Assembly (NCBI GenBank): GCA_032622095.1
Contig: CP136066.1
Span: 207,350,978-207,414,977, forward strand
DNA: 64,000 nucleotides
Reading direction: 5' to 3'
DNA from: Siphonodentalium dalli
Lineage: Eukaryota; Mollusca; Scaphopoda; Gadilida; Siphonodentaliidae
This document shows, in pieces, positions 4,161-55,511 of the stretch (position 1 is its first letter; each line of letters begins with the position of its first letter). The position numbers were made by a program, and so were the translations under genes. The notes below the pieces were generated by a model. The model ran no database searches and had not been told where the DNA came from. It saw nothing but the letters and a program-made list of their open reading frames with translations.

Positions 4161-4313
4161 TGGAAAGTTTAAATCCTATATTGGGATCAATTGGATAAAT
4201 ACTAGCTGTTGGCAGTAGGGTATGCCAAAGTATTTAGTGATGCAAAGAGTAAAAGAGTAAAATCCAAAATGGCTGGTGGCATACAGCGATGTTTTTAAAG
4301 ACATATTATGTAC

Positions 4314-4713
4314 TTAACCCTTTACCCAACAGAACGGCCCTGTGCCAATGCATTCTCTTATATATGCGAGTCGACCATAGGTCGCCTCACATATATAAGA
4401 GAATGCATTGGCTTAACACATTAAAAATTATAAAATTGTTAAAGAATGTAAGAAAAAATGGTAAAAAGTGTTAAAAAAAGATTTTTTTTAGGCCAATGCA
4501 TTCTCTTATATATGCGAGGCGACCTATGGTCGACTCGCATATATAAGAGAATGCATTGGCACAGGGCATAACTGTAACTATCACAATGTGGTCAAGGAGC
4601 CGGTTCCAATGATATCCATATTTGTATGGTTCTATTGAGACAGACCGAAGATATTTTAGGCTGTTGAAGCTTTATTTGGCCGGTTTTGGCCGGTTTGTTG
4701 GGTAAAGGGTTAA
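4314..4713 (+). mobile_element. Family A TTAA element, copy 1
   Basis: It is bounded by TTAA, with terminal repeats CCCTTTACCCAACA and GTTGGGTAAAGGG. It holds two 69-bp hairpins in opposite orientation, separated by an AT-rich spacer, then a tail (CACAATGTGGTCAAGGAGCC ... GGCCGGTTTTGGCC). CCC termini and TTAA duplications are the piggyBac-superfamily pattern. No transposase is encoded, so it is a non-autonomous element of 400 bp. Confidence 0.85.
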
Positions 4714-13542: not shown

Positions 13543-14768
13543 CATGTCTGACATTTGCAGAATGAGGTCCCTCAGAGGGTGAATTTATTTTTGAAGAATT
13601 CATATTTATTAGTGGGAAATGATAATAAATAAGTATAAAAAAATAAATTCAACCTGTGGTCGTTTATATAACAATATAATTTTTATTATATAATTAAATA
13701 ATATAATTTATAATAGTTTGATTTATGGTTCCAATTATATGGGGAAAAAAGAGGATACATAAAGTTAAAATAATGTTCATCTCCTATATGTTTGGTATTA
13801 CATCTCCTATATGTTTGGTATTACATCTCCTATATGTTTGGTATTACTTCTCCTATATGTTTGGTATTACATCTCCTATATGTTTGGTATTACATCTCCT
13901 ATATGTTTGGTATTACTTCTCCTATATGTTTGGTATTACATCTCCTATATGTTTGGTATTACTTCTCCTATATGTTTGGTATTACATCTCCTATATGTTT
14001 GGTATTACATCTCCTATATGTTTGGTATTACATCTCCTATATGTTTGGTATTACATCTCCTATATGTTTGGTATTACTTCTCCTATATGTTTGGTATTAC
14101 ATCTCCTATATGTTTGGTATTACATCTCCTATATGTTTGGTATTACATCTCCTATATGTTTGGTATTACTTCTCCTATATGTTTGGTATTACATCTCCTA
14201 TATGTTTGGTATTACATCTCCTATATGTTTGGTATTACATCTCCTATATGTTTGGTATTACATCTCCTATATGTTTGGTATTACATCTCCTATATGTTTG
14301 GTATTACTTCTTCGGATCGCACTGGAATTGTCAGACTCTGATACATGCCAAATTTAGTCCTTGAGGTCGTGTACGAACCTTTGTGGTGCGAGATGAAAGT
14401 GAATGTTTTCAGTGATGCCGCCACCCATCACAGCAGGCTAGCATCATCAATTTCAGCCTCTGGGGAGCTCATTTTTCTTTGGCCTCATATTCTGGGAAGT
14501 ATCTATTGTCTCAAATTAACATTGTTTTTAGTTACTTTTCTCCCTTCTGTTCGTTTTTTTTATTTGCAGAATGAGGTCTCCAGAGTGTGAATTTAGTGAC
14601 GCTGTCCCGCTCAGTGGGCTAGCATCACAATATTCACCCTCTGGGGACCTCTTCTGCTTAAGCCTCAACTGCTATGGGAAACCTAGGATCAGATTGAAGT
14701 TCCCCAGTTGAAGTTGGTGATGTTTACCAATTAGTCAGCTCGATTACCGGTAGGGGATATAGGAACCA
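13543..14768. mobile_element. Family F element interrupted by an ~820-bp insertion
   Basis: The left bit (about 13543-13587) stops inside the first hairpin at GGTGAATTTA; the right part resumes at about 14411 with GTGATGCCGCCACC, the next expected bases. The insertion holds the 23-bp array. The right part is rearranged (hairpin and centre repeated) and ends near 14768. Confidence 0.62.
13780..14310. repeat. 23-bp tandem array
   Basis: About 23 copies of CTCCTATATGTTTGGTATTA plus CAT or CTT. Since 23 is not a multiple of 3 and the unit has no stop in any plus-strand frame, all three plus frames stay open for over 500 bp. The long predicted proteins with YMFGITSPICLVL-type repeats are therefore an artefact. 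The unit variation (CAT/CTT) is not regular. Confidence 0.93.
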
Positions 14769-18116: not shown

Positions 18117-18165
18117 AATACGTGGGTGATTTAGTTTACGATGTATATTACAGGTTCCGACTCAC

Positions 18166-18235
18166 CGATAAGTGGATTCTTTCTGATGTTGAGAACTACA
18201 AGTGTCCTATTTAATTTGAGTACATCAAGAAACAG
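18166..18235 (-). pseudogene. CEP78: Decayed duplicate of CEP78 exon b
   Basis: These 70 bases match the 3' part of exon b with about six substitutions. The shared sequence extends into the donor (ATCG|gtgagtc). The minus-strand frame is still open, reading LFLDVLKLNRTLVVLNIRKN, with Phe-Leu, Thr-Arg and Asp-Asn replacements relative to exon b. The 5' half of the exon and its acceptor are missing; similarity stops a few bases before a family F element that starts at 18254. Another F element ends at 18116 on the other side. It is probably a relic of a local exon duplication. Use as an alternative exon would need a new acceptor, which I do not see. Confidence 0.8.
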
Positions 18236-18253
18236 GTTGATGATGATCCTATC

Positions 18254-19379: not shown

Positions 19380-19493
19380 CGATAAGTGGATTCTTTCTGA
19401 TGTCGAGAACCACCAGTGTCGTATTAAATTTTAGTACATCAAGAAACAGATTGGCACCTTCACACCCGAGGCCACATATCTGCATGTCCAATG
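19380..19493 (-). CDS. CEP78: CEP78 LRR exon (exon b)
   Basis: This 114-nt minus-strand exon lies between acceptor tttatatttatag|CATTGG and donor TTATCG|gtgagt. Its first two bases complete an Ala codon with the final G of exon a, giving [12 protein letters not shown]. It continues through [14 protein letters not shown] to [13 protein letters not shown], which corresponds to CEP78 ALDLQQCGLTNEGA and [15 protein letters not shown]. It ends with a single G that pairs with AC at the start of exon c to give Asp. The acceptor edge is the seed of the adjoining 31-bp tandem array (19482-20462), so the true acceptor is the last of a long series of near-identical copies. A second, decayed copy of this exon lies about 1.2 kb downstream in the gene, at 18166-18235. 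Confidence 0.92.
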
Positions 19494-20462
19494 CTATAAA
19501 TATAAAACAAACGCATGTCCAATGCTATAAAGATATAACGAACGCATGTCCAATGCTATAAAGATATAATGAATGCATGTCCAATGCTATAAATATAAAA
19601 CAAACGCATGTCCAATGCTATAAAGATATAATGAATGCATGTCCAATGCTATAAAGATATAATGAATGCATGTCCAATGCTATAAAGATATAATGAACGC
19701 ATATCCAATGCTATATAGATATAATGAATGCAAGTCCAATGCTATAAAGATATAATGAACGCATGTCCAATGCTATATAGATATAATGAACGCATGTCCA
19801 ATGCTATATAGATATAATGAATGCATGTCCAATGCTATAGATATAATGAATGCATATCCAATGCTATAAAGATATAATGAATGCATGTCCAATGCTATAT
19901 AGATATAATGAACGCATATCCAATGCTATAAAGACATAATCAATGCATATCCAATGCTATAGATATAATGAATGCATATCCAATGCTATAAAGATATAAT
20001 GAACGCATATCCAATGCTATAAAGACATAATCAATGCATATCCAATGCTATAGATATAATGAATGCATATCCAATGCTATAAAGATATAATGAATGCATA
20101 TCCAATGCTATAAAGATATAATGAACGCATATCCAATGCTATAAAGACATAATCAATGCATATCCAATGCTATAGATATAATGAACGCATATCCAATGCT
20201 ATAAAGATATAATCAATGCATGTCCAATGCTATAAAGATATAATGATTGCATGTCCAATGCTATAAAGATATAATGAATGCATGTCCAATGCTATAAAGA
20301 TATAATGATTGCATGTCCAATGCTATAAAGATATAATGATTGCATGTCCAATGCTATAAAGATATAATGAATGCATGTCCAATGCTATAAAGATATAATG
20401 AATGCATGTCCAATGATATAAAGACATAATCAATGCATGTCCAATGGTATAAAGACATAACA
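19482..20462. repeat. 31-bp tandem array seeded by CEP78 3' splice site
   Basis: About 32 head-to-tail copies of a 31-bp unit (GCATGTCCAATGCTATAAAG followed by ATATAATGAAT, with variants). On the minus strand each unit reads ctttatag|CATTGGACATGC, the same bases as the acceptor and first 12 coding bases of CEP78 exon b. The first unit overlaps the exon (19482-19493). The array lies in the intron directly upstream of the exon in the transcript. Units differ by a few changes (ATATCC/ATGTCC, AAAGACATAATC, TATAG deletions) that recur in blocks, indicating later block duplications. Two units reappear at 38578-38637 inside a composite element. Confidence 0.93.
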
Positions 20463-20696
20463 AATTTATACCATAATTGTCTGTTACTGTGTGTGTAACA
20501 CCTATTTTGTAAATTTCAGCTGTGGGTGTAGTAAATGTTTAAATGTCATTTCATGGGTTAAGCATATGAACACCATTATAACTAGTAAATATACTTTAAA
20601 TATGCTGTTCGGACAAATGCAAACTGGTATAAGAGTGAGAAGTCACTTCTCCCTGGAACAAAAATGGGGACAAGTGAAACAATTTAGGGAGAAGAT

Positions 20697-20787
20697 GTCT
20701 CCCAAGTCACCCTCTTGACTGGTCCCTGTCTCCCAAGTCACCCTCTTGACTGGTCCCTGTCTCCCAAGTCACCCTCTTGACAGGTCC
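20697..20787. repeat. 31-bp triplet repeat
   Basis: Three copies of CTCCCAAGTCACCCTCTTGA plus CTGGTCCCTGT. Two copies exist in the inverted duplicate near 38290-38345. The sequence just before it (GAAGTCACTTCTCCCTGG) recurs at 63935. Confidence 0.85.
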
Positions 20788-20899
20788 CAGTTAGATAGTG
20801 CATGTTTCAGAAAAATTAAAAAGATATAATTTTGATCAAACAGTAGATAGCATATGCATCCAATTGTTAATTTTGGTTAATTAGGTTCTGTAAGCTGCT

Positions 20900-21324
20900 T
20901 TAACCCTTTCAGTGCCAGGGGCCGATCTCATCGGCCCTAATTTACGGTCTGTAAAATCGGCCCTAAAAAAAAAATGCTTAAGCATACTATAGCGAACTTA
21001 AAAACAAACTGGATAAAACCTTAGGGGCATGTTATAATCCAAAACTATCACCAAGTATTCATAGTAATAATTTTGTTGCCCATGAAAACTGTAAGATTCC
21101 CTGGCACTAAACCTACAAAATAAGTTTGTTAAAGAATATAAGAAAAAATTATTAAAATTGTATAAAAAATTTAAAAATAATAACAAATGATGAAAAATTG
21201 TTAGGCCAATGCATTCTCTTATATATGCGAGGCGACCTATGGTCGACTCGCATATATAAGAGAATGCATTGGCACAGGGTATATGGGTTGATACAAAAAT
21301 CGGACCTGGCACTGAAAGTGTTAA
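20900..21324. mobile_element. Family B TTAA element (piggyBac-like MITE)
   Basis: It starts TTAA-CCCTTTCAGTGCCAGG and ends CCTGGCACTGAAAGTG-TTAA. The terminal bases CCC and the TTAA duplication are typical of piggyBac-superfamily elements. There is no transposase ORF, so it is non-autonomous. It contains one copy of the shared 69-bp hairpin (about 21204-21272). Its right TTAA is also the left TTAA of a family D element. Confidence 0.82.
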
Positions 21325-21586
21325 TACTTTCTATACTAAATACTCATTGATGAGTTGTTCCCTTACGAAATGTTCAGATAATAAGTTCAACAGGTAGTTT
21401 GTTGAACTTATTATCTGAACATTTCTCAGTAATTAATAGAAATTCGTCTTCACTTGTTTTATCTTTCCATTTGTCTGTCGTTGGCTTTTATTACCTGAAC
21501 ATACCTCGAAATGAATAATAGACCCTTCCAAAATATAACTTTTAAAACTGGGTGGGATAATCCATTTAGTATTGAAAGGGTTATTA
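21321..21586. mobile_element. Family D TTAA element, complete
   Basis: Left TTAA-TACTTTCTATACTAAATA, right ATTTAGTATTGAAAGGG-TTATTAA. It includes an internal palindrome (AATGTTCAGATAATAAGTTC and its complement). Its left TTAA is shared with the right end of the family B element. No ORF of note. Confidence 0.7.
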
Positions 21587-21753
21587 AGCATATATGACCA
21601 TATCATGAAGACAGACAAACAGAGAGGGTTAATTTCAATGGGAAATTGTGCTGCAGCACATAGAAACCACAGACCTCCACAACCAATTAAGCAACTCACA
21701 ATGTTGCTTGAAACCAAATAACTTCCCTTGTCTGGAACATCAGTGTCCAAGCA

Positions 21754-22024
21754 TTAACCATTCCATGACTAGAGCTTCCAGAAATTTGCAAAAACCCTGT
21801 GCCAATGCATTCTCTTATATATGCGAGTCTCCCATAGGGAGCCTCGCATATATAAGAGAATACATTGGCCTAACAATATTTACCTTGACCTTGAATAAAG
21901 CGAGTGAATTCTCTTATATATGCGAGGCTCCCTTAGTATGGGATACTCTCATATATATAAGAGAATTCACTGCCACATTATCTTTAATGCTGCACAATTA
22001 CAGCTCCTGTCATGAAAGGGTTAA
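21754..22024. mobile_element. Family C TTAA element
   Basis: Bounded by TTAA. The left end is CCATTCCATGAC, the right end GTCATGAAAGGG. The first hairpin has arms of the shared type and inner stem CTCCC-ATA-GGGAG; a second, diverged hairpin follows. No coding capacity beyond short hairpin frames. Confidence 0.8.
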
Positions 22025-22171
22025 TAAAACGATTGCTGAACGACTTATGATGGCTTGATGTGACATGATCACTGATATAACGTTATATTTACATACTCCG
22101 AAGATTGATTGTGTTTTTCTCATAGAGTTTTGATGGCCACACACACTGTTTTACTGCCGTGATTTAAGAAA

Positions 22172-22435
22172 TGAATGTAGTTTGGTAGTGTTTTATTGAA
22201 GGGTATAGCGCTGTCGTTATGTGAACAGCACTAAATGCTCCAACAGCCAGAGTGATATACCACTCAATAAAACAAACCCAAACTACATTAAGCAGAAAAT
22301 GAATGTAGTGGGTGTGGGTGTTATTGAGGGATACGGCATTGCGGTCGTTGGGGCACACTAGATATGCCCCCAATGACGACCACAGCACCGAATCTGCCAA
22401 TAACACACACATCCACTGCATTCATTTCTTATATT
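22172..22435. repeat. Two adjacent palindromes
   Basis: Two foldbacks of about 120 bp each start ATGAATGTAGT (22172, 22300) and end with the complementary CTACATT or CACTGCATTCAT. They share TTATTGARGGRTAYRGC and GGTCGTT-like text, so they are diverged copies of one palindromic element. Confidence 0.7.
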
Positions 22436-22639
22436 TATATAGATTTTTGGTGATTTATTCCCATACAAAAGCTGAGTGTATTCTTATTTATTTTCACAAA
22501 ATCTGCCGTGAATTTGAGACTAGCCCACACAGCACATTAAGTCAGCCCGATATAAGATTTCCAAGCACTAGCAACAATAACGTGATCGATATAAATAACT
22601 GGCTTCAGATGCAATTCGGCTGAAATTTGAAAAGCACGC

Positions 22640-23125
22640 CCAATTATTCGGCTAACCGCTTTTAGTGATTAGGTCAACAATTTGTGACATCATTTTCTGT
22701 GTGTTATTAGGGTATGAAACGGGTGACCCAATTGGCAGTTGACCAATCACCGAACAAGATTTTGTGTAATACAGGGCTATGTAAATATTTTCTTATATTT
22801 ACATAGCTTTTTCCTTATTAAGTGAAAAAAAACTTTTTTATCTGAAAGCTGTCTGCATTTTGAATTATTAAATTAGCCCAATATTCTACCGATCGAATCG
22901 ATCCGATTACTTTGGCCACATACTTTAAAAAAAAAAACATAACCAGTTATTATTGGCCACATACTTAAAAAAAAACATAACCAGTTATTCCATCTACAGC
23001 TTTTAGTCATCTAGGTCAACAAGATTACAAGATGTGACATCGGTTAGTGTTATGGTGTGTTTTATTGGGATATAAAACACATCACCCAATTGGCAGTTGA
23101 CTAATCACGGAACAGGATTTAATCA
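22640..23125. repeat. Direct repeats around CCCAATTGGCAGTTGAC
   Basis: A block (TAGGTCAACAA, TGTGACATC, CCCAATTGGCAGTTGAC, AATCACSGAACA) occurs at about 22660-22765 and 23000-23120. Between them AAACATAACCAGTTAT is also doubled (22936, 22972). Confidence 0.7.
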
Positions 23126-23390
23126 ATCAATCAATCATGTTTATTTGTACGTTACACCATATATGGTCAAATGTACATGAACACAGAATAACAAGACAAA
23201 ATGGACGGATTACATGAAACAAAGTTAAGTAACAACAATGATATATGGCGGTATACGATGATATATGGCAATATACATATGTTATACCGGTATATGCCTA
23301 CCATAAGTTGTGATAAAATATGTAGATGATTGGCAAATATACCATTCAGAATTGAGACTGGCAACACTGGCATGGTCTCAAGTCGAGGAA
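23115..23390 (-). other. Possible retroelement 3' end with (AATC)n tail
   Basis: A run of AATCAATCAATCAATC is followed by TGTTTATTTGTACGTTAC and a roughly 250-bp stretch. This resembles a minus-strand retroelement end with a simple tail. No coding sequence is evident. Confidence 0.35.
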
Positions 23391-23627
23391 TCTTTGTTTC
23401 TTTTTAGTTGTACTCAATTTAAGAGTTCGTTACTAGGTTGACAAACCCCTTATAATGCACCACTCACAGGCTATGTAAATATTAGCATATAACCAAACAA
23501 GGTATAGAAATTTGAAACATCATATTCCATATAACCAGAGGTTAATGCAGTTTGCTTAATTTTTCTTGCAGTAAAACTCCCATGACCACATTGAATCTGC
23601 CGTTCATTTTTAGAAAAATAAACTAAC

Positions 23628-23802
23628 CTTTGACCCAAAGGTCATCCTTAAGAGCTTCTGCAAGATAAGCAGCTCCTTCATCTCCGATCATGTTGTTGTT
23701 GTTAATGGTGATCCGTCGAATCCCAGACATCCTGTCAAGGTCCGGCCGACGATAACGGAGACTGTCTTTCCAGGCTTCATTGTGTCGTTTAACAGCCTGA
23801 TG
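23628..23802 (-). CDS. CEP78: CEP78 LRR exon (exon a)
   Basis: Read on the minus strand, this 175-nt exon encodes 58 residues plus one base of the next codon. It follows a strong acceptor (ttctctcttgtag) and ends at donor AAAG|gttagt. The residues RHNEAWKDSLRYRRPDLD, then a leucine-rich repeat with NNNNMIGDEGAAYLAEAL and DDLWVK, match the vertebrate CEP78 segment containing RRHEETWAESLRYRRPDLD and DLWLRALDL as I recall it. CEP78 is a centrosomal/ciliary protein with N-terminal LRRs and a C-terminal coiled coil. It sits at the mature centriole and is linked to the DYRK2-EDD-DDB1-VPRBP ubiquitin ligase; human mutations cause cone-rod dystrophy with hearing loss. There is no start codon because this is an internal exon. 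Its last base joins the 114-nt exon at 19380-19493 in phase. The intron between them is about 4.1 kb and holds family C and D elements and the 31-bp array. Confidence 0.92.
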
Positions 23803-36309: not shown

Positions 36310-36615
36310 ATAACCCTTTATCCAACAAAACGGCCAAAACCGACCAAATAAAGCTTCAACAGCCTAAAATATCTTCGGTCTGTCTCAATAGAACCATAAA
36401 AATATGGATATCATTGGAACCGGCTCCTTGACCACATTGTGATAGTTACAGTTATGCCCTGTGCCAATGCATTCTCTTATATATGCGAGTCGACCATAGG
36501 TCGCCTCGCATATATAAGAGAATGCATTGGCCTAAAAAAAATCTTTTTTTAACACTTTTTACCATTTTTTGGAGAATGCATTGGCACAGGGCCCTTCTGT
36601 TGGGTAAAGGGTTAA
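36310..36615 (-). mobile_element. Family A TTAA element, copy 7, internally deleted
   Basis: Left end ATAA-CCCTTTATCCAAC is a mutated TTAA; the right end GTTGGGTAAAGGG-TTAA is intact. The second hairpin and part of the spacer are deleted: the text jumps from the spacer to GGAGAATGCATTGGCACAGG. One hairpin remains (about 36465-36533). Confidence 0.82.
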
Positions 36616-37755: not shown

Positions 37756-39017
37756 TTAACCCTTTCAGTGCCAGGTCCGATTTTTGTATCAACCCATATA
37801 CCCTGTGCCAATGCATTCTCTTATATATGCGAGTCGACCATAGGTCGCCTCGCATATATAAGAGAATGCATTGGCCTAACAATTTTTCATCATTTGTTAT
37901 TATTTTTATAAAAAAAATTAAAAAAATTTCTTATATTCTTTAACAGACTTATTTTGTAGGTTTAGTGCCAGGGAATCTTAGTTTTCATGGGCAACAAAAT
38001 TATTACTATGAATACTTGGTGATAGTTTTGGATTATAACATGCCCCTAAGGTTTTATCCAGTTTGTTTTTAAGTTCGCTATAGTATGCTTAAGCATTTTT
38101 TTTTAGGGCCGATTTTACAGACCGTAAATTAGGGCCGATGAGATCGGCCCCTGGCACTGAAAGGGTTAAAGCAGCTTACAGAACCTAATTAACCAAAATT
38201 AACAATTGGATGCATATGCTATCTACTGTTTGATCAAAATTATATCTTTTTAATTTTTCTGAAACATGTACTATCTAACTGGGACCTGTCAAGAGGGCGA
38301 CTTGGGAAACAGGGACCTGTCAAGAGGGCGACTTGGGAGACATCTTCTCCCTAAATTGTGTCACTTCTCCCCATTTTTATTCCAGGGAGAAGTGACTTCT
38401 CACTCTTATACCAGTTTGCATTTGTCCGAACAGCATATTTAAAGTATATTTACTAGTTATAATGGTGTTCATATGCTTAACCCATGAAATGACATTTAAA
38501 CATTTACACCCACAGCTGAAATTTACAAAATAGGTGTTTCAGACACAGTAACAGACAATTATGGTATAAATTTGTTATATCTTTATAGCATTGGACATGC
38601 ATTCATTATATCTTTATAGCATTGGACATGCATTCATTATTAAAATTTTTAAAAATTGTAAAAAATAATAACAAATGATTTGTTATTATTTTTTTTTTTT
38701 AATTTTAAAATTTTAATAATTTTTTCTTATATTCTTTAACAGACTTATTTTGTAGGTTTAGTGCCAGGGAATGTTACGTTTTTCATAGGCATCAAAATTA
38801 TTACTATACTTGGTGATAGTTTTAAGTTATAACATGCCCCTAAGATTTTATCCAGTTTGTTTTTAAATTCGCTATAGCATGCTTAAGCATACCCAAAAAT
38901 AATTCAACCCAAAAAAATCTAAAAAAAAATAATTTTAATTTAAATTTTTTTTTAGGGCCGATTTTACAGACCGTCAATTAGGGCCGATGAGATCGTCCCT
39001 GGCACTGAAAGGGTTAA
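37756..39017. mobile_element. Composite family B element carrying captured DNA
   Basis: Both outer ends have family B termini: TTAA-CCCTTTCAGTGCCAGG at 37756 and CCTGGCACTGAAAGGG-TTAA ending at 39017. Inside are a complete B element (37756-38169), about 470 bp matching 20433-20900 in reverse (including two units of the CEP78-derived array, 38578-38637), a short foldback (about 38634-38725), and the terminal part of a second B element (to 39017). The layout is element - captured flank - element, with TTAA on both outer sides. The inner junction falls at the microhomology ATTATTAAAATT. Confidence 0.8.
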
Positions 39018-40825: not shown

Positions 40826-41640
40826 GTCTGAAGCGACGGTTCAGAGAATAAATTAGTAACGTAGGTTCCTGGACCTGAATGTCTGAAGCGACGGTTTATA
40901 GATTAAATTAGTAATGTAGGTTCTTGGACCTGAATGTATTAAGCGACAGTTTAGAGATTAAATTAGAGACGGAGGTTCCTGGACCTGAATGTCTGAAGCG
41001 ACAGTTTAGAGATTAAATTAGAGACGGAGGTTGCAGGACCTGAATGTCTGAAGCAAAGGTTTAGAGATTAAATTAGAGACGGAGGTTCCTGGACCTGAAT
41101 GTCTGAAGCAACGGTTTAGAGAATACATCAGAATGACGTAGGTACCTGAACGTCTGAAGCGACGGTTTAGAGATCACATTAGTGACATAGGTTCCTGGCT
41201 CTGAACGTCTGAAGCGACGGTTTAGAGATTACATTAGTGACATAGGTTCCTGGCTCTGAACGTCTGAAGCGATGGTTTAGAGATTACATTACTGACATAG
41301 GTTCCTGGCTCTGAACGTCTGAAGCGATGGTTTAGAGATTACATTACTGACATAGGTTCCTGGCTCCGAACGTCTGAAGCGACGGTTTAGAGATTACATT
41401 AGTGACATAGGTTCCTGGCTCTGAACGTCTGAAGCGACGGTTTAGAGATTACATTAGTGACATAGGTTCCTGGCTCTGAACGTCTGAAGCGACGGTTTAG
41501 AGATTACATTAGTGACGTAGGTTCCTGGACCTGAATGTCAGAAGCGACGGTTTAGAGATTACATTAGTGACATAGGTTCCTGGCTCTGAACGTCTGAAGC
41601 GACGGTTTACCGATTGCATAAGTGATGTAACTTCCTGGTC
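40826..41640. repeat. 55-bp tandem array
   Basis: About 15 units of GTCTGAAGCGACGGTTTAGA, GATTACATTAGTGACATAGG, TTCCTGGCTCTGAAC. Early units have GGACCTGAAT and GAGACGGAGG; later ones are more uniform with GGCTCTGAAC. Period measured from GACGGTTTAG at 41161, 41216 and 41271. Confidence 0.9.
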
Positions 41641-41668
41641 CTGAATTGAGAACACTGAAATTTATCTA

Positions 41669-42940: not shown

Positions 42941-44541
42941 GGCCCGTTCCAAACGACGGATTTTTGTCGACTCGAATCTAATTGTATTAAATCCGTCGGT
43001 GATGCATCTGCGGTCGATTTTGTTACAAACGGACGCATCTTTGTCGCGTCGAATCTAATACATCGGTAGATTTATTTAAAGGTGGATTCCCGGTTACTGT
43101 CAAAAATTGGTCACGCGTAGATATAGAGGCCTATATATACCGGTATATGTTATACATATATATACTAACATACAATATAAATTATGTATATATATATATA
43201 TATATATGCGCGACTGCAGCGCGAATATATGTGCTCATGTATATGAGGATGTATATAGTACATGCAGGTATATAATATACTATAATAGGCGCTACAAATA
43301 AATGTTATATCGTGCAACCAATTGCCATCTATATATGTGTATACCATGCATGTAAATACCGGTATACAAGAATTATTATAAATCAGAGACTACCACCCCT
43401 ACCACTTATAATAAGGATTACCGGAATATATTAATTATTATAAATCATAGGCTACCACCCTATATCCTTTATAATAAGGAATAACGGCATATATGAATCA
43501 TTATAATTCATAGGCTACTATCCATACCCCTCATAATAAGTAATACCGGTTTATATGAATTATTATAAATATGAGGCTACCACTCTGCCCCTTCTAATAA
43601 GGAATACCGGAATATATTAATTATTATAAATCATAGGCTACCACCCTATATTCTTTATAATAAGGAATACCGTTATCTTTGAATATTATAAATCATAGGC
43701 TACTATCCCTACCCCTCATAATAAGTAATACCGGTATATATAAATTATTATAAATCATAGGCTACCAATCTGCCCCTTATAATAAGTAATACCGGAATAT
43801 ATGAATTATTATAAATAAGAGGTTACCACCCATATACCCCTCATAACAAGTAATGCCGGTATATATGAATTATTATTAATCAGTGGTACCACCCATACCC
43901 CTTATAATAAGTAATACCGGTATATATTAATTATTATACATCAGACTACCACCCCTATCCCTTACAATAAGGAATATCGGTCTATATGAATTATTATAAA
44001 TCAGTTGCTACAACCCATATCCCTTATACCGGTATATATGAATTATTGTAAATCATTGATAATATATCCATTATAAGATGTGAGTCAGTGACATGCCATG
44101 TTCGTTGAGAAATCAAACTGCCATAATAATTAAAATTTTCACAATGTTACCTAAGCAATTCTTATAGATATATCTTTCTTTATAACAAAGAGAGCGTGCG
44201 ACAAATGATGTCATGTGGGTATTTCCGCAGATAAGGGGAACTCCCTCATTATTATCCCATTATCATATCATTATCATAGCATTTGCATTCGTTATTCGGA
44301 AACTTTCGGCTCTTCTCGTCACATGTATTAGATTCGAGTCGACAAAAATCCGTCGTTTGAAACCAAGACGGATTTCAGACGCATCACCGACGAAGATTCG
44401 TCTGAATTGGACGGAGATTCGTCTGTGGTGTGTCTGACACGGATCTAATTGTTTCAAACGTCGCATTTTAGACGCATTTAATACAATTGTGGGTCTGGTA
44501 TTAGATTCGAGTCGACAAAAATCCGTCGTTTGGAACGGGCC
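42941..44541. mobile_element. Harbinger-like element (1601 bp) with internal satellite
   Basis: Long terminal inverted repeats begin GGCCCGTTCCAAACGACGGA and continue with TTTTTGTCGACTCGAATCTA. TTA is present on both sides (42938-42940 and 44542-44544), as in PIF/Harbinger insertions. Near each end there are further repeats of the ATCCGTC / GACGGAT text. The centre is a tandem array of AT-rich units (43375-44060) and a TA run (43185-43206). No transposase or Myb-like ORF is visible, so it is non-autonomous. Confidence 0.82.
43375..44060. repeat. ~62-bp tandem array inside the Harbinger-like element
   Basis: About 11 irregular copies containing GAATTATTATAAATCATAGG, CTACCACCC and CCTTATAATAAGTAATACCG. 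Units vary by small indels. The array is confined to the transposon interior. Confidence 0.8.
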
Positions 44542-52830: not shown

Positions 52831-52858
52831 TTAGCCAGAAAAAGCAATAAAATTATAA

Positions 52859-55176
52859 TGAGAAATGCGCTCCATATAGCTAACGTTCTGCGTATGTGTT
52901 AGTATGATGTCATCTGCCATCGGGAGCAAAATGGAAGTATCTATATATGAGAAATGCGCTCCATACAGATAACGTTCTGCGTATGTGTTAGTATGATGTC
53001 ATCTGCCATCCGGAGCAAAATGGAAGTATCTATATATGAGAAACCCGCTCCATACAGCTAACGTTCTGTGTATGTGTTAGTATGATGTCATCTGCCATCC
53101 GGAGCAAAATGGAAGTATCTATATATGAGAAATGCGCTCCATACAGCTAACGTTCTGCGTATGTGTTAGTATGATGTCATCTGCCATCCGGAGCAAAATG
53201 GAAGTATCTATATATGAGAAATGCGCTCCATACAGCTAACGTTCTGCGTATGTGTTAGTATGATGTCATCTGCCATCCGGAGCAAAATGGAAGTATCTAT
53301 ATATGAGAAATGCGCTCCATACAGCTAACGTTCTGCGTATGTGTTAGTATGATGTCATCTGCCATCCGGAGCAAAATGGAAGTATCTATATAATGAGAAA
53401 CGCACTCCATACAGCTAACGTTCTGCGTATGTGTTAGTATGATGTCATCTGCCATCCGGAGCAAAATGGAAGTATCTATATATGAGAAATGCGCTCCATA
53501 CAGCTAACGTTCTGCGTATGTGTTAGTATGATGTCATCTGCCATCGGGAGCAAAATGGAAGTATCTATATATGAGAAATGCGCTCCATACAGATAACGTT
53601 CTGCGTATGTGTTAGTATGATGTCATCTGCCATCCGGAGCAAAATAGAAGTATCTATATATGAGAAATGCGCTCCATACAGATAACGTTCTGCGTATGTG
53701 TTAGTATGATGTCATCTGCCATCGGGAGCAAAATGGAAGTATCTATATATGAGAAATGCGCTCCATACAGATAACGTTCTGCGTATGTGTTAGTATGATG
53801 TCATCTGCCATCCGGAGCAAAATGGAAGTATCTATATATGAGAAATGCGCTCCATACAGATAACGTTCTGCGTATGTGTTAGTATGATGTCATCTGCCAT
53901 CCGGAGAAAAATGGAAGTATCTATATATGAGAAATGCGCTCCATACAGCTAACGTTCTGAATATGTGTTAGTATGATGTCATCTGCCATCCGGAGCAAAA
54001 TGAAAGTATCTATATATGAGAAATGCGCTCCATACAGATAACGTTCTGCGTATGTGTTAGTATGATGTCATCTGCCATCCGGAGCAAAATGGATGTATCT
54101 ATATATGAGAAATGCGCTCCATACAGCTAACGTTCTGCGTATGTGTTAGTATGATGTCATCTGCCATCCGGAGCAAAATGGAAGTACTAGTATCTATATA
54201 TGAGAAATGCGCTCCATACAGATAACGTTCTGCGTATGTGTTAGTATGATGTCGTCTGCCATCGGGAGCAAAATGGAAGTATCTATATATGAGAAATGCG
54301 CCCCATACAGATAACGTTCTGCGTATGTGTTAGTATGATGTCATCTGCCATCCGGAGCAAAATGGAAGTATCTATATATGAGAAATGCGCTCCATACAGC
54401 TAACCTTCTGCGTATGTGTTAGTATGATGTCATCTGCCATCCGGAGCAAAATGGAAGTATCTATATATGAGAAATGCGCTCCATACAGATAACGTTCTGC
54501 GTATGTGTTAGTATGATGTCATCTGCCATCCGGAGCAAAATAGAAGTATCTATATATGAGAAATGCGCTCCATACAGATAACGTTCTGCGTATGTGTTAG
54601 TATGATGTCATCTGCCATCGGGAGCAAAATGGAAGTATCTATATATGAGAAATGCGCTCCATACAGATAACGTTCTGCGTATGTGTTAGTATGATGTCAT
54701 CTGCCATCGGGAGCAAAATGGAAGTATCTATATATGAGAAATGCGCTCCATACAGATAACGTTCTGCGTATGTGTTAGTATGATGTCATCTGCCATCCGG
54801 AGCAAAATGGATGTATCTATATATGAGAAATGCGCTCCATACAGCTAACGTTCTGCGTATGTGTTAGTATGATGTCATCTGCCATCCGGAGCAAAATGGA
54901 AGTATCTATATATGAGAAATGCGCTCCATACAGATAACGTTCTGCGTATGTGTTAGTATGATGTCGTCTGCCATCGGGAGCAAAATGGAAGTATCTATAT
55001 ATGAGAAATGCGCCCCATACAGATAACGTTCTGCGTATGTGTTAGTATGATGTCATCTGCCATCCGGAGCAAAATGGAAGTATCTATATATGAGAAATGC
55101 GCTCCATACAGCTAACGTTCTGCGTATGTGTTAGTATCATGTCATCTGCCATCCGGAGCAAAATGGAAGTATCTAT
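52859..55176. repeat. 89-bp satellite with 8-monomer higher-order repeat
   Basis: About 26 monomers of 89 bp (GAGAAATGCGCTCCATACAG, GATGTCATCTGCCATCCGG, GGAAGTATCTATATAT). Variants CAGCTAAC/CAGATAAC and CATCCGG/CATCGGG are shared among monomers. Rare variants recur at fixed spacing: GTCGTCTGCC at 54251 and 54963, CGCCCCATAC at 54299 and 55011 (712 bp, 8 x 89), and GGATGTATCT at 54091 and 54809 (718, explained by a 6-base insertion at about 54186). Confidence 0.93.
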
Positions 55177-55511
55177 ATTATTTTCAAGACAGTGTCAGAC
55201 TTTAATTTATGGAAATAATGTTTCAATGCAATTAAGCCCCTATGCAATAATGATAACCTGATGCCTTTAATCGCTGAACATTGAAGACAAATGAGTAGCA
55301 GTCAGTCGCATGTTTCGTTGTAGTTTCGAGCAAGTTTACTGTTTTTCATGCCGCTATTATCAATTATTCCACCTCATACATCCTAAAACACAATGGTCTT
55401 CGTGAGTTAATAATTGCCACTAACCTTAACACGAAATTTTGCTTTATCATACGATTTAAGAATTGTACATAGATGATTCGCAAACAGCAATCCGCCCCAT
55501 GTCTATACATG
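55177..55511. other. No recognised feature
   Basis: Unique AT-rich DNA between the 89-bp satellite and a family E element. Confidence 0.45.

Follow-up and report, generated by a model that had tools for sequence, protein, structure and literature searches.

A 31-bp minisatellite of mirage-type anatomy at a 3' splice junction of a CEP78-like gene

Exons and tandem array of the CEP78-like locus

The window (the whole stretch of DNA that was analysed, 64 kb) contains two exons of a CEP78-like LRR gene on the minus strand, separated by an intron of 4134 bp (19494–23627, minus strand) that carries a tandem array close to its 3' end. The tblastn query was a provisional human CEP78 sequence. Exon A (23628–23802, minus strand, 175 bp, donor GTTAGT) was found with E = 6e-18, 34/61 residues identical; the LRR segment of exon B with E = 6e-11, 29/46 identical, an alignment that ends beyond the donor; both alignments overrun the exon ends by a few residues. 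Exon B (19380–19493, minus strand, 114 bp) was placed by tblastn, reading frame and sequence; it is in phase 1 at both ends, and its donor GTGAGT reads from 19379. The two exons were joined by script and gave an open reading frame of 96 residues, the join being in frame and falling between adjacent residues of the provisional human CEP78. Exon B starts with CATTGGACATGC; in tblastn the translated start was aligned with the human ALDLQQCGLT of the provisional query at the A/B join, and the LD...LG.EGA pattern of the exon was also aligned with an LRR chain in PDB. Because it fits both the human join and the PDB chain, the start of exon B looks ancestral.

Five further pieces of the provisional protein gave no match above reversed controls in the 64 kb (best E 0.044 against 0.037); the N- and C-terminal parts of CEP78 may be located beyond the window or may have diverged too far. 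No Pfam family was found for a 37-aa stretch, and neither Rfam families nor tRNAs were detected in scans of the window. Other genes may lie in the window, whose open reading frames were listed.

About 1.1 kb downstream, at 18126–18239, lies a partial copy consisting of the 3' part of exon B and its donor, 82% alike; over its exon portion 7 codons are changed, 3 of them altering the residue, and the copy has no stop and is open in frame. It may be a dead relic or may once have been used. This copy, together with the recovery of just two exons from 64 kb by the provisional human query, would suit a reading in which the whole locus is a partial or decaying copy of CEP78 and the array is without consequence. 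Exons A and B are, however, open and joined in frame, both with a donor, and residues that exon B shares with the provisional human protein have been replaced in the partial copy (T to R, D to N); decay of the locus is therefore considered quite unlikely.

The array was detected by TRF at 19481–20460 (31-bp period, 31.9 copies, 91% matches). When the minus strand was cut at each 12-nt exon-like segment, 32 units of about 31 bp were obtained at 19482–20465, the real junction included; in each, 17 or 19 nt from the end of the intron precede 12 nt from the start of the exon. Units 10, 14, 17 and 21 are 29 bp long (2 bp short), the remaining ones 31 bp. Unit 32 (19482–19512, minus strand) is the real junction; it joins the last 19 nt of the intron to the first 12 nt of exon B, exon base 1 being at 19493. 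The sequence-only reading had taken the unit for the gene's own 3' splice junction (intron end plus the first 12 bases of exon B) and had placed the array directly upstream of the true acceptor; both statements were borne out, unit 32 being the exon B acceptor itself. It had also counted some 32 decoys: 32 is the correct number of units, but the 32nd is the real junction, which leaves 31 decoys (19513–20465, minus strand), 29 of them with an intact AG. Thus 30/32 units end in AG, at a spacing of 29–31 nt; in the two decoys farthest from exon B, whose exon-like parts begin at 20446 and 20415, AC and AT, respectively, stand in its place.

Mean pairwise identity of the units is 90%. The window contains 31 copies of the 17-mer TATAGCATTGGAYATGC, of which 29 are in the array (real junction counted) and 2 in an inverted copy at 38.6 kb. 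The 17-mer was absent from 100 dinucleotide-preserving shuffles; chance similarity of the units was ruled out on this ground. Unit 29, a decoy at 19575–19605 (minus strand) whose exon-like start at 19586 is 93 nt upstream of the real site, is identical to the real junction over 31/31 bp; all other decoys differ from it at 3 to 8 positions. Exact matches to array patterns were sought in two collections, neither of which consists of animal genomes: none was found for three patterns in viral_contigs, and none for one pattern in genome_contigs, negatives that carry little weight in view of the contents of these collections.

Tandem repeats are also present elsewhere. A second minisatellite of 31-bp period and unrelated sequence (3 copies) lies in the A/B intron at 20696–20788, with about 2 copies at 38277–38342 in the 38-kb duplicate. 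Four more arrays of more than 10 copies were found at 13778–14311, 40826–41645, 43355–44028 and 52854–55178 (units of 23, 55, 61 and 89 bp, respectively); the window is a minisatellite-rich region, and its repeats give a molluscan impression.

Origin of the units and the copy at 38 kb

Units three apart differ at 2.14 positions on average, against 3.09 in shuffled order (p = 0.0004, 5000 shuffles); neighbouring units are also more alike than in shuffled order, less strongly (p = 0.014). The similarity of units three apart suggests that units were exchanged in blocks, for the most part three at a time. The variant TTTG was found in units 1 and 32 and in the edge unit of the 38-kb copy, and is rare in the interior; there its last two places are occupied by CA, GA or CG, most units having TTCA. 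It is present also in unit 29 and, by half, in unit 31, so that its exclusion from all but the edges is not strict. TTTG is read here as the older state, apparently held at the edges during homogenisation of the interior. The gene is the most likely source of the units, given that the start of the exon agrees with the LRR reading and that TTTG is common to both edges.

On the preferred explanation, a short stretch covering the 3' end of a CEP78 intron together with 12 nt from the start of the following exon would have been tandemly duplicated; the copies would have multiplied and been partly homogenised by unequal exchange, in part as blocks of three units; and the original junction would have remained at the downstream end, so that the gene retains its acceptor and the additional copies fall within the intron. 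Such a mirage-type minisatellite, as judged from one haplotype (DNA only) and two CEP78 exons in 64 kb, is considered probable.

Mobile elements occur near the array. A MITE-like, TTAA-ended inverted-repeat element is located at 20900–21324 in the A/B intron, and the two distal array units recur inverted at 37756–38640, together with the intron next to them and a TTAA-ended element; the array part of this copy (38570–38640, plus strand) comprises two units and a small part of another. At 37756–39017 the intron piece and the two units are bracketed by a whole (37756–38169) and a truncated (ending at 39017) TTAA element, an arrangement that resembles composite transposition; the inner end of the truncated element looks, by eye, like a small fold-back. 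A family of elements of about 400 bp is represented by the copy at 4313–4713 and by ten more in the window, of which that at 36311–36570 is partial; its members are 92–99% identical to the 4313–4713 copy, lie in both orientations and are partly self-complementary.

The array as a part of the intron MITE was considered and judged unlikely, the element lying outside the array. A broader reading is that the array arrived with a mobile element, overwrote the exon start and donated the present acceptor and the first four codons. It may draw on the two array units, about 400 bp of adjoining intron and the TTAA-type MITE being found inverted at 38 kb between two such elements, and on the tandem repeats carried by mobile elements that are described for bivalves in excerpts of the literature. 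Against this, the exon start holds the frame and the expected LRR pattern, the MITE of the CEP78 locus begins 435 bp beyond the array, and the 38-kb copy consists of the intron-side edge of the array plus intron and so reads as derived from the CEP78 locus; donation by a mobile element is regarded as highly improbable.

Comparison of the 38-kb copy with the CEP78 locus gave 8 differences in 730 bases of flank (summed by hand from 5/231, 2/349 and 1/150) and 5 in 67 bases of the array stretch (Fisher p = 0.003), the comparison leaving out 20696–20788 (second minisatellite), 21141–21174 (badly aligned, AT-rich) and the bases past 21324. Two of the five differences in the array stretch fall on the bases through whose change the two distal decoys lost their AGs. 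The 38-kb copy may derive from another allele, and for this reason no conclusion on selection is drawn.

Features of the true acceptor

The pyrimidine and branch-site scans were crude motif counts. The tract of the true site, GTTTGTTTTATATTTATAG, has a T fraction of 0.69 at −20 to −5; 28 of the 29 AG decoys have 0.50–0.56. The sequence-only reading had held that the true site differs by a T-richer tract and that the decoys may be tolerated for want of a good one. The higher T content was found relative to 28/29 AG decoys, but unit 29 matches the real junction at all 31 bp, so that the tract alone cannot mark the true site and was ruled out as a sufficient mark; and 14 decoys equal the true site in pyrimidine fraction and in the −3 base, so that a poorer tract cannot silence every decoy. 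Among 182 AGs of the intron, 19 have T or C at −3 and a pyrimidine fraction at least that of the real one: the real acceptor, the 14 decoys and 4 elsewhere. By motif scan the real acceptor of exon B is weak compared with that of exon A (pyrimidine fraction 0.875, CTAAC 28 nt upstream). Because local sequence fails to separate the true site from every decoy, we think that position sets it apart: it would be picked mainly for being the AG nearest to the exon body and its GTGAGT donor, i.e., by exon definition.

Branch points have been sought in the AG-free zone and about 15 nt upstream of it, a search zone that follows from the possible bypass of AGs closer than 12–15 nt to the branch point (PMC1431707, in excerpt). 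This AG-exclusion-zone rule was derived from human introns, and non-canonical branch sites are possible too. Here the motif yTnAy was sought at least 12 nt from the splice site, the 12-nt floor being our own setting. For the real acceptor a single canonical candidate was obtained, the A at 19528, 35 nt upstream, in the TTTAT at 19527–19531 (minus strand) inside the last decoy; the real site's branch point may thus lie in a decoy. The same scan of the 29 AG decoys gave one candidate for the decoy at 20291, four for that at 20384 and two or three for each of the others.

The real acceptor might accordingly have become dependent on its own decoys, the TTTATAG of the last decoy supplying the branch A 19528. 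The AG of that decoy, 2 nt from this A, would be too close for use and would be bypassed for the real AG; with a 31-nt period each unit could give the branch point of the next, as in a ladder of splice sites. Dependence of this kind is offered tentatively and held to be rather unlikely; if it were true, deletion of the array would cost exon B.

Use of any of the 31 decoy positions was found to lead to a premature stop (30 in the inserted sequence, 1 in exon B by frameshift), and the products would presumably be removed by nonsense-mediated decay. The array contains 18 GT dinucleotides, none of them within GTRAG, GTAT or GTTAG, and array-internal exons are therefore not expected.

The stops in every decoy product, the AGs kept in 29/31 decoys and the branch candidates, by motif count as many in the decoys as at the real site or more, would also be expected of an array that selection maintains as a splicing regulator, the decoys binding U2AF/SF1 and tuning productive CEP78 mRNA via stop-containing isoforms. 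Homogenisation by itself, however, keeps units alike, the AG is lost in the two distal decoys, and the amphioxus arrays discussed below are reported in excerpts of PMC3087553 and PMC3902484 without disturbance of splicing; a regulatory role is accordingly given very little weight.

Relation to known systems

Mirage minisatellites, first reported by Canestro et al. in 2002 (cited via PMC3087553), are described for amphioxus Adh3 and for the globins BflGb6 and BflGb9 in excerpts of PMC3087553, to which those of PMC3902484 add TnC and, as imperfect repeats, PGBD5. In the same excerpts (PMC3087553, PMC3902484) they are tandem repeats over an intron–exon boundary that adjoin the authentic boundary; splice signals are present in many, not all, units; concerted evolution acts in the cluster with the boundary units excluded; splicing is reported as normal; and the hosts reported are cephalochordates.

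By anatomy the CEP78 array is a mirage minisatellite, of a kind already known from amphioxus: its units span the intron–exon boundary (32/32), it is contiguous with the authentic boundary through unit 32, and the splice signal is kept in many, not all, units (29/31 decoys). On concerted evolution with the boundary units excluded, the array gives a mixed picture: units three apart are alike (p = 0.0004) and units 1 and 32 share the edge variant, but unit 29 equals unit 32. The arrays differ in dimensions: 32 units of 31 bp in CEP78; units of 10–72 bp in Adh3; units of 150–160 bp in BflGb6, with 6 and 3 copies in two haplotypes (excerpts of PMC3087553). Splicing and instability were examined for the amphioxus mirages according to these sources, whereas the CEP78 array is known from the DNA of one haplotype.

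Two other systems are comparable in part. In the intron gain of potato RdRp (PMC4974935, in excerpt) a duplication likewise spans an intron 3' end and exon start; there a single duplication made a new intron, whereas the CEP78 array has many copies, and a new intron as in potato is not expected since GTRAG, GTAT and GTTAG do not occur in the array. NAGNAG tandem acceptors likewise present more than one acceptor AG before one exon; their isoforms differ by three bases (PMC3250501, in excerpt), whereas the AGs of the CEP78 array are 29–31 nt apart and all decoy products contain stops.

A literature search, which was not exhaustive, gave no report of such an array in CEP78 and none on CEP78 with bivalve as a search term. 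Three points are new here: one decoy duplicates the real acceptor exactly, each product of decoy use contains a stop, and the branch point is predicted to lie in the last decoy. The locus is a natural experiment on how the spliceosome selects the correct 3' splice site from many near-identical candidates, one decoy being identical over 31 bp, and illustrates how duplication of a splice boundary can multiply splice signals with the true junction left in place. If the host is not amphioxus, mirage minisatellites would not be peculiar to cephalochordates.
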